The translations under genes and the position numbers were made by a program. 64,000 nucleotides of DNA from Rudaea cellulosilytica DSM 22992 (lineage in GTDB: Bacteria > Pseudomonadota > Gammaproteobacteria > Xanthomonadales > Rhodanobacteraceae): NCBI RefSeq assembly GCF_000378125.1, contig NZ_KB899244.1, positions 124,001 to 188,000 on the forward strand, written 5' to 3'. How positions within the stretch are numbered: the first letter of the stretch is position 1; each line of letters begins with the position of its first letter. This document shows positions 47,785-49,187 of the stretch, piece by piece. A model generated the notes under the pieces. It was not told the DNA's origin and did not search any database. It was given only the letters and a program-made list of their open reading frames with translations.

Positions 47785-48012
47785 GACCTGACAACGTGAT
47801 CGGGGTGGGATTGCTCGTCTCATCCTGAGACTCGCCCTCCGCGCTTGCGCGCTACGGGCCAGCCTTCGGCTGTCCAAAATCGCTCCCGGCGATTTTGTCA
47901 CTGCGTAGGCAGGATGCCGAAGCGAACATCGGCACAGCCGATGGCCCGAAGGGCGAAGAGCGGGACGTCCTGAGTCAACCGAGTGGGTTCGTCCACCCAT
48001 CGCTCGCCATCA
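47785..48012 (-). ncRNA. Structured tail downstream of tRNA-Ser(CGA), unit 1
   Basis: Homologous to the tail after tRNA-Ser(TGA) (49036-49187). On the minus strand it has GGACGAACCCAC near its start, then a hairpin AAAATCGC / GCGATTTT with loop CGGGA (47895-47875), the shared GGACAGCCGAAGGCTGGCCC, a hairpin GTCTC / GAGAC with loop AGGAT (47832-47818), and AATCCCACCCC, a degenerate copy of the tRNA 3' end. About 75 bases near the middle are absent from unit 2. No coding sense. Whether it is an RNA on its own is unknown. Confidence 0.55.
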
Positions 48013-48051
48013 GAAATGAAAAACGGCCCGCGAGGGGCCGTTTTTCATTTC
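48013..48051 (-). terminator. Terminator directly after tRNA-Ser(CGA)
   Basis: A 17-bp perfect inverted repeat: GAAATGAAAAACGGCCC (48013-48029) and its complement (48035-48051) around a 5-nt loop. Read from the tRNA it forms a GC stem followed by TTTTT. Confidence 0.88.
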
Positions 48052-48142
48052 TGGCGGAGAGGGTGGGATTCGAACCCACGGTGCGCTATGAACGCACGCC
48101 TGATTTCGAGTCAGGTACAATCGACCACTCTGCCACCTCTCC
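48052..48142 (-). tRNA. tRNA-Ser (anticodon CGA)
   Basis: 91 nt with encoded CCA. Acceptor GGAGAGG / CCTCTCC, anticodon stem-loop CCTGA-CTCGAAA-TCAGG, long variable arm, T-loop TTCGAATCC. Followed at once by a strong terminator and the structured tail. Confidence 0.97.
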
Positions 48143-48232
48143 GGTGACTTTGATTCGATTCGAATCGAAGGGCGCGCATGATACGGGCCGCGACGCAAAG
48201 TTACAACAGCGCGGCGCGCGGATCGAGGCGTT

Positions 48233-48802
48233 TCAATCTTTTTGTCCGGCGAGCTCGCCCATGAATTGTCGGTAGTAGCGAAGCTCGGCGATCGAATCGC
48301 GGATGTCCGACAGTGCCGTGTGCTGCGATTCCTTCGTGAAGCCGCGCGCCAGTCCCGGCGCCCACCGGCGCGCCAGCTCCTTGACCGTGGACACGTCGAG
48401 ATTGCGATAGTGAAAAAACCGCTCCAGCCGCGGCATCAAGCGATGCAGGAAACGGCGGTCCTGGCAGATCGAATTGCCGCACATCGGCGATTTGCCCGAC
48501 GGCACCCAGCGGGTGAGGAAATCCATCGTCAGCGCCTCGGCCCGAGCCAGATCAACGCCCGAGTCGAGCACGCGTTGCCACAGACCCGATTTGCCGTGCT
48601 GGTTGCGATTCCAGTCGTCCATCGCCTCGAGTTGGGCAAGCGGATGGCCGATGGCAAGTTCCGGGCCTTCAATAAGTATATTCAATGACTTATCGGTAAC
48701 AATTGTAGCAATTTCGAGAATGGAATCCCGGTCGGTATCGAGCCCGGTCATTTCCAGATCGATCCAGATCAGGTTGTCTTCGTGAGGTTGTGCCGCAATC
48801 AT
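48233..48802 (-). CDS. orn: Oligoribonuclease
   Basis: Degrades RNA dinucleotides, including pGpG from c-di-GMP turnover. The 189-residue DEDDh exonuclease shows Asp and Glu in [12 protein letters not shown], the second Asp in CQDRRFL and [11 protein letters not shown] with the catalytic His. The ATG at 48802 is used; in-frame sequence further upstream runs antisense across tRNA-Ser(TGA) and is not coding. Confidence 0.97.
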
Positions 48803-48907
48803 GCTTGCATCGCATCGGTTCAAACCCCGACGATAACATTCTCGCCTTGCAGCGCGTAGCCGGAACTTGGATGCTTGGCGATCGCTTATACTTCCCGCCA
48901 GCACTCC

Positions 48908-48997
48908 GGAGAGGTGGCCGAGCGGTTTAAGGCAGCAGTCTTGAAAACTGCCGTGGATGTAAGTCCACCGTGGGTTCGAATCCCACCCTCTCCGCCA
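48908..48997 (+). tRNA. tRNA-Ser (anticodon TGA)
   Basis: 90 nt with encoded CCA. Acceptor GGAGAGG / CCTCTCC, anticodon stem-loop GCAGT-CTTGAAA-ACTGC, long variable arm, T-loop TTCGAATCC. It is divergent from orn. Confidence 0.97.
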
Positions 48998-49000
48998 GAT

Positions 49001-49034
49001 AAGCAAAACGGCCCACGAGGGGTCGTTTTGCTTG
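49001..49034 (+). terminator. Terminator directly after tRNA-Ser(TGA)
   Basis: Stem AAGCAAAACGGCCC / GGGTCGTTTTGCTT with one G-T wobble and a short loop. Homologous in core (AACGGCCC...CGAGGGG) to the terminator after tRNA-Ser(CGA). Confidence 0.82.
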
Positions 49035-49035
49035 T

Positions 49036-49187
49036 CTGATGGGGAGGATCGGCGGACGAACCCACCCGGTTCGACAAATTTGTCTGGAACAAATTTGGAC
49101 AGCCGCAGGCTGGCCCCGCAGCGCTCCGCGCGGAGGGGTGAGGCTCACGGACGAGCCGAACAATCCCACCCCCTGTACCAGCCGCGA
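49036..49187 (+). ncRNA. Structured tail downstream of tRNA-Ser(TGA), unit 2
   Basis: Homologous to unit 1. It contains GGACGAACCCACC, a hairpin AAATTTGT / ACAAATTT with loop CTGGA (49074-49094), GGACAGCCGCAGGCTGGCCCC, a hairpin GGCTC / GAGCC with loop ACGGAC (49142-49157), and AATCCCACCCC, resembling the tRNA 3' end. Both stems differ from unit 1 by paired changes while the NGGA loops persist. Confidence 0.58.

Follow-up and report, generated by a model that had tools for sequence, protein, structure and literature searches.

TLR/RrB-type repeats with GGA hairpin loops downstream of two tRNA-Ser genes in Rudaea cellulosilytica: candidate CsrA/RsmA-binding RNAs

In Rudaea cellulosilytica DSM 22992 (Rhodanobacteraceae, Gammaproteobacteria), the genes for tRNA-Ser(CGA) and tRNA-Ser(TGA) are each followed by a structured tail, which we studied in a window of 64,000 nucleotides (contig NZ_KB899244.1, positions 124,001 to 188,000; coordinates below count from the first nucleotide of the window). 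Covariance-model scores leave little doubt that each tail is a relative of the Escherichia coli repeats known as TLRs, and of RrB among them. The core structure consists of four conserved hairpins with covarying stems, and hairpins 1 and 4 retain GGA in their loops. The tails are best explained, in our view with a probability of roughly 0.55, as read-through RNAs that would bind CsrA/RsmA and are carried by a mobile-looking repeat. The original prediction had described structured tails after the two tRNA-Ser genes with two-sided stem changes around constant GGA loops, and this was right, both stem pairs and their loops being exact. It had also proposed an undescribed small RNA tied to tRNA-Ser, which finds no support: the repeat groups with TLR, rtT and RrB of E. 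coli, and copies also lie after many other tRNAs, after tmRNA and away from tRNAs.

The two cores begin 70 nucleotides past tRNA-Ser(TGA) and 147 nucleotides past tRNA-Ser(CGA), and contain or are followed by these features:

49067-49167, + strand: TLR/RrB-type core after tRNA-Ser(TGA), 84.1 bits with covariance model R2, the copy being one of the 29 training sequences of R2
49075-49097, + strand: TGA hairpin 1, loop CTGGA (49084-49088), from fold and covariation
49097-49115, + strand: TGA hairpin 2, GGACAGCCGCAGGCTGGCC, from pattern match and covariation
49113-49140, + strand: TGA hairpin 3, of variable length, outer CCCC/GGGG
49142-49157, + strand: TGA hairpin 4, loop ACGGAC, closing C-G (CACGGACG), from covariation
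49162-49171, + strand: 10-nt direct repeat of the tRNA 3' end (AATCCCACCC), what is left of the TLR hallmark repeat
47807-47905, - strand: TLR/RrB-type core after tRNA-Ser(CGA), 82.2 bits with R2, the copy likewise being one of its 29 training sequences
47875-47897, - strand: CGA hairpin 1, loop CGGGA, from fold
47857-47875, - strand: CGA hairpin 2, from fold and pattern match
47832-47859, - strand: CGA hairpin 3, from fold
47817-47831, - strand: CGA hairpin 4, GTCTC-AGGAT-GAGAC (CAGGATG), from fold
47803-47812, - strand: 10-nt direct copy of the tRNA 3' end (AATCCCACCC)

The fold energies of the tails are beyond chance (z -3.2 and -3.9). Hairpin 1 is seen in the minimum-energy fold of the TGA copy alone; hairpins 2 and 4 are not and rest on comparison. 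This comparison drew on two covariance models with rough E-values, R1 (Rhodanobacteraceae tails only) and R2 (29 diverse sequences, including both window copies and no E. coli sequence). Two-sided changes affect 6 of 27 predicted pairs among 47 family copies (alignment A1, 47 of 51 units used, five odd units having been dropped earlier from 56 distinct ones). Among 29 diverse homologues (alignment A2, rows chosen by hand), 94.4% of the pair cells are paired, 15 of 25 pairs show two-sided changes, and the covariation score is 0.426, against 0.153 after shuffling and at most 0.095 in slid registers. Paired changes recur in many further homologues and support the original prediction's view of a selected RNA or DNA structure.

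The loops are similarly constant across the class. GGA is present in hairpin 1 of 113 and in hairpin 4 of 110 among 118 distinct class-wide copies, and hairpin 4 is closed by C-G in 117 of 117; alignment A3, made from 100 loci, leaves out L182, L219-L238, L319-L325 and L336-L338 of the class-wide loci. Scans with these models favour GGA-bearing and tRNA-linked copies, on which they were trained, and model-free tRNA censuses serve as the check. A set of 102 copies was also collected by the hairpin-2 pattern without a model; 33 matches that did not fit the register of hairpin 1 were removed, together with repeated segments and any match close to the end of a locus. Of the 125 pattern loci, 85 were scanned with R1. 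Hairpin 1 carries GGA in 99 of these copies, with 888 of 918 hairpin-1 cells in Watson-Crick pairs; a second strong hairpin follows in 89 copies, and in 75 of these its loop contains GGA.

Three sequence blocks said to be shared by the tails were all recovered. The block GGACGAACCCAC is exact at 47983-47994 (-) and 49054-49065 (+); when up to two mismatches are allowed, the 12-mer has 8 occurrences where 5.6 are expected, so that the exact pair alone is informative. The block GGACAGCCG(A/C)AGGCTGGCC lies at 47857-47875 (-) and 49097-49115 (+), two occurrences against 0.04 expected in shuffles, and AATCCCACCC is present at the two positions given above.

With R2, the E. coli rrB repeat, which sits between the terminators of rrnB, reaches 62.1 bits (E 1.8e-12 for 901 bases), and with R1 36.7 bits. 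For the three rtT repeats downstream of tyrV, the scores are 10.5-16.8 bits with R2 (aligned, with both GGA loops missing) and 17.3-22.3 bits with R1. These scores show homology of the core to rrB and a more distant one to rtT. The Rfam RtT model (RF00391, cut-off 45) gave sub-threshold matches on related tails (L186, 30.8 bits, E 0.018; L195, 28.9 bits, E 0.051; L192, 22.6 bits; L204, 19.7 bits) and no match at the cut-off in the window. The hallmark of TLRs is also found among the relatives: in 54 first tails after a tRNA or tmRNA gene, the 3' end of that gene is repeated over at least 10 nt in 35 and at least 15 nt in 24, whereas control 3' ends of other isotypes reach 10 nt in 0, 2 and 0 of 54. 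An inverted copy of the tRNA's own 3' end, exact over at least 10 nt, is present in 26 of the 54 tails (controls 1, 1 and 0).

According to Stenum et al. 2021 (PMC8144298), TLRs have been known since 1978, comprise 22 members at ten E. coli loci, and end in 18-19 nt identical to the 3' end of the upstream gene. The paper reports no known function apart from rrA/B/F, whose RNAs are made by read-through of T1, and the retraction of a starvation role claimed for a tyrT-tyrV TLR; its BLAST search placed rrB relatives in at least 31 species, every one of them in the Enterobacteriales. Like RrA, RrB and RrF, the E. coli TLRs between rrn T1 and T2, the window copies adjoin a stable-RNA gene downstream, right after its terminator-like hairpin, and have the same homologous four-hairpin core and fold with GGA in loops 1 and 4 (CTGGA and ACGGAC; CGGGA and AGGAT). 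Their 3' repeat is 10 nt long (AATCCCACCC) in place of the 18 nt of RrA/RrB/RrF or the 18-19 nt of TLRs in general, and we file them as eroded TLR variants. They further differ from RrA/RrB/RrF in that the tails in this genome are linked to tRNA-Ser, tRNA-Gln and tmRNA rather than to 5S rRNA and have an inverted tRNA 3' end before the core. The rtT RNA (rttR, RF00391; tandem TLRs after tyrT/tyrV) is tRNA-linked and shows the same order of inverted 3' end, GGTTCGA, hairpins and AATCC 3' repeat, but it is without the GGA loops. The kind of repeat is therefore known; what is new is the class-wide RrB-type core, its linkage with GGA loops to tRNA-Ser, tRNA-Gln and tmRNA, and the dispersed copies, none of which we found described in the open-access literature searched (the 1978 and 1999 TLR papers lie outside it).

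Elsewhere in this genome, BLAST with the TGA tail retrieved both window copies and a third copy after the tmRNA (called by ARAGORN), and R2 added a fourth after tRNA-Gln(CTG) at 57.4 bits. These tails of tmRNA, tRNA-Gln and the two tRNA-Ser genes are the four top R2 matches of the whole genome (57.4-84.1 bits). A model-free scan of 46 tRNA and tmRNA genes for a downstream repeat of their own 3' end singled out the same four, with 18 nt (tmRNA), 16 nt (tRNA-Gln), 10 and 10 nt (tRNA-Ser), the rest having at most 9. All four have GGA in hairpin loops 1 and 4, and each contains at least two GGA-loop hairpins of six or more pairs, against 0.1-0.3 in shuffles; under this rule the second hairpin counted for the TGA tail is hairpin 3, as hairpin 4 of that tail, with the loop ACGGAC, falls short at five pairs. 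Three weaker R2 copies at E <= 1e-3 (52.2, 49.0 and 38.1 bits) bring the total to seven. The 38.1-bit copy (L342, G000:C1:1348-1438) lies on the same strand 47 nt upstream of tRNA-Tyr and does not follow a repeated 3' end.

Relatives are widespread. Copies are present in 131 of 197 genomes of the same GTDB family, often in tandem after tRNA-Ser. Across the Gammaproteobacteria, R2 at E <= 1e-6, with the best 16 candidates per genome scored, found them in at least 86 of 274 genomes and at least 73 of 222 genera, and found none in the two genomes from another family of the same order. The same GGA-loop fold, with paired stem changes, stands after tRNAs and tmRNA in many gammaproteobacterial families. 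Thirteen genomes were searched deeper (12 picked as rich) and hold from 6 to at least 64 copies each; this genome has seven. For 123 class-wide copies, selected by their scores under a model whose training set included tRNA tails, the positions are as follows: 36 are downstream of a tRNA or tmRNA, within 350 bp and on its strand, 10 are upstream of one, 11 are on the opposite strand, and 66 have no tRNA nearby. The hairpin-2 pattern also matched viral contigs, four of five of which hold copies.

The reading of the tails as CsrA/RsmA-binding RNAs starts from RrB, which binds CsrA in vitro with a Kd of ~100 nM and clearly more weakly when its GGAs number 1, 2 and 5 are changed (PMC8144298). From their order along rrB, we infer that GGAs 2 and 5 correspond to the loops of hairpins 1 and 4. 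This genome has one csrA; the CsrB family model gave no match in the genome at E <= 1, nor did Rfam, including the other Rsm models, in the window. In Xanthomonas, according to PMC7694677, none of CsrB/RsmB, CsrC or RsmV, W, X, Y and Z was found to have a significant homologue. The tails are testable candidates for RsmA-binding RNAs in Lysobacterales, the order that includes Xanthomonas. They resemble CsrB/CsrC, RsmX/Y/Z and RsmU in having several hairpins with GGA in the loops, but those RNAs have many sites and their own promoter or an mRNA 3' end, whereas the tails have two loop sites per unit and are tRNA-linked. By description they may also be likened to 3'ETS-leuZ of E. coli, an RNA that derives from the 3' trailer of a tRNA and acts by titration, but differs in titrating base-pairing small RNAs and not CsrA (PMC7914890, PMC8144298). 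We consider CsrA binding by the window copies probable, and a real regulatory role in the cell somewhat doubtful.

Read-through from the tRNA transcripts, the source that had been proposed for the RNA, is plausible because the E. coli homologue RrB arises by read-through of its first terminator (PMC8144298). Downstream of each tRNA-Ser gene, a strong hairpin starting from CCA is followed by a degenerate inverted tRNA 3' end, the ~100-nt core and the 10-nt direct copy; the parts before the core are:

48908-48997, + strand: tRNA-Ser(TGA), whose last 19 nt (48979-48997, AATCCCACCCTCTCCGCCA) are the stretch repeated by TLRs
48995-49041, + strand: terminator-like hairpin beginning at the tRNA CCA (fold 49000-49040, -23.2 kcal/mol, z -5.3)
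49038-49066, + strand: degenerate inverted copy of the tRNA 3' end, including GGACGAACCCAC, with 9 nt of exact inverted match
48052-48142, - strand: tRNA-Ser(CGA)
48008-48054, - strand: terminator-like hairpin after tRNA-Ser(CGA) (fold 48010-48054, -32.4 kcal/mol, z -9.2)
47983-48012, - strand: degenerate inverted copy of the tRNA 3' end

A related terminator had been claimed after each tRNA. The hairpins are strong, but a simple terminator scan flagged neither of them, nor any terminator after either tail, and the T-runs of both lie within the stem. For the tmRNA copy, which lies outside the window, inspection by eye shows that the tail is followed by a hairpin whose end is T-rich. If the tails are indeed read-through RNAs that bind CsrA/RsmA, a fraction of tRNA-Ser transcripts would pass the first hairpin, acting as a leaky terminator, and processing of the tRNA type at the repeated 3' end would free the tail. 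A CsrA/RsmA dimer would be weakly titrated by the loops of hairpins 1 and 4, and CsrA activity would then track tRNA and tmRNA transcription, hence growth rate.

Several observations weigh against this account. According to PMC8144298, altered RrB levels have modest phenotypes only, CsrA affinity is judged unique to the rRNA-linked TLR copies, and the other 19 (tRNA-linked) E. coli TLRs have a predicted score of <0.01 for CsrA regulation. Caution is also called for by RsmU, whose binding to RsmA persisted when every predicted GGA was altered (PMC7694677). It is from homology that we infer expression of the tails in this organism, and processing at the 3' repeat may have been lost, as 10 of 18-19 nt are kept. 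The Rfam RtT model has no match at E <= 10 on the window tails (L017), the tmRNA tail (L016) or L019. Of the 45 class-wide tails beyond tRNA 3' ends, nine are inverted, and their sense RNA is without such loops. A model-free census in three other genomes, picked for being element-positive (32 of 37, 34 of 41 and 35 of 43 listed tRNAs examined), yielded ten repeats of at least 12 nt, five of which are not counted as TLRs (four tRNA-Met, one 12-nt tRNA-Ser). Just two of the five TLRs have two GGA-loop hairpins by a strict rule; another is GGA-rich with a nested insert, and two are without GGA-loop hairpins. A preference for G-U over A-C was rejected as proof of RNA-level selection: the model-found set has 57 to 18 over all pairs and 30 to 10 once four pairs at the outside or end of hairpins 3 and 4 are excluded, but hairpin 1 of the pattern-found set has 9 to 7, and since the two sets disagree, RNA- and DNA-level selection are not separated. 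Absence of CsrA from element-positive genomes did not refute binding. CsrA was found in 71 of 80 such genomes searched (of 86), a weak test because CsrA is common, and a match is absent in 9 of 80, or 4 of 69 among good assemblies.

The strongest alternative, which we nevertheless hold to be rather unlikely, is that the tails are palindromic DNA repeats, selfish or mobile, whose sites of insertion include the T-arm portion of duplicated tRNA 3' ends; their hairpins and GGA loops would serve a mobilising enzyme, with the RNA a by-product. It draws on the many dispersed copies (at least 60 in genome G332 and at least 64 in G443, 150 candidates scored in each), which also count against the binding account, and on near-identical copies in G318 (L219-L225), which lie within a longer dispersed repeat and have flanks largely alike over 50 nt. 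Copies also lie within apparent coding regions, among them copies at the same place in two Ectothiorhodospira species (L093 262-346, L102 184-268), in what we take to be a restriction-enzyme-like gene, and occur in both orientations beyond tRNA 3' ends, 9 of the 11 opposite-strand copies being inverted at 66-89 bp past the 3' end. The stems are nearly all Watson-Crick, with few one-sided intermediates, and two tRNA-Ser-like sequences appear, by eye, to have their T-loop split by the element (GGTTCGA, element, (A)ATCCC; L100 6512-6612, L077 3914-3973). On the other side, no mobilising gene was found, R2 having no match in 20 fetched loci around Y1 (REP-type) transposases, and no match was found in plasmid or phage collections at 1e-5. 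Flanking palindromes are not general (4 of 116 beyond the 1% threshold), and the CsrA binding of the homologue RrB would be superfluous for an element acting purely as DNA. The two ideas are compatible, as a mobile repeat could carry a CsrA-type RNA fold.

Specific routes of mobility fared less well. Rickettsia palindromic elements and REP-type repeats are short dispersed palindromic repeats, sometimes found inside genes. REP/RAYT mobilisation was rejected: Y1 transposases are present in 13 of 13 searched genomes (5 of 14 controls), but R2 has no match within ~1.5 kb of them in the 20 loci, and no RAYT neighbours the element there. An in-frame element like those of Rickettsia, likened by description, was also rejected, as 48 of 118 copies are crossed by an open frame with no bias to lengths that are multiples of three (remainders 22, 14 and 12 for these, and 50, 38 and 30 for all 118). 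Insertion at palindrome tips does not hold as a general rule (mean flank duplex -10.6 against -9.2 permuted); the four cases past the threshold, and most of the leading ones, are tRNA-linked, and the idea is kept for tRNA tails only. A plasmid or phage origin was dropped for want of matches in those collections. Element clusters occur at L226-L237 (G332, G321) among presumably defence or prophage genes, and several overlap what may be a start codon (GCATGACAAATTCG, preceded by GGAGG resembling a ribosome-binding site).

A cis module for tRNA-Ser 3' maturation or termination, made of tail hairpins and repeated or inverted 3' ends with no trans-acting RNA, seems improbable: the inverted copies do match their own tRNA 3' end and the strong hairpins do begin at CCA, but a repeat of at least 10 nt is present at 4 of 46 tRNA/tmRNA genes only and is therefore not needed for maturation in general, and the fixed GGA loops are left unexplained.

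A bolder extension of the CsrA/RsmA-binding account, which we regard as unlikely, would make RrB-type TLRs a class-wide, scattered CsrA/RsmA sponge and the repeat a mobile CsrA docking module. If true, the tRNA- and tmRNA-linked copies would be a main counterweight to CsrA/RsmA in lineages without CsrB or RsmY/Z relatives, maybe including this one; they would couple CsrA/RsmA directly to stable-RNA transcription, and the dispersed copies would put CsrA sites into other transcripts.

The CGA tail contains ~70 nt of extra sequence (47906-47982) without counterpart in the TGA tail. Its + strand reads GGCAGGATGCC...GCCCGAAGGGC, gives a weak R2 match (17.4 bits, E 0.082; L017 335-422, window 47894-47981) and resembles a second, related hairpin element family, with apparent relatives elsewhere in the genome (L208-L211, 28-31 bits with R2) and in the tails of L025, L030, L032 and L036. 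A protein-coding tail was rejected, since a Pfam search with the translated tail gave no match. At 42072-42276, a third gene, tRNA-Ser(GGA), has no TLR tail, and the small SRP RNA gene comes immediately after it. An oligoribonuclease-like gene (RNase_T domain, 48236-48802, - strand) sits between tRNA-Ser(CGA) and tRNA-Ser(TGA), and nearby genes encode a DUF6165 protein, a LysR regulator and seryl-tRNA synthetase. The Rfam sX4 model matches tRNA-Ser(CGA) plus its terminator-like hairpin (L017 429-590, - strand, window 47988-48149) at 59.9 bits, below its cut-off of 70, and the sX4 family may itself be a tRNA-Ser plus its trailer.

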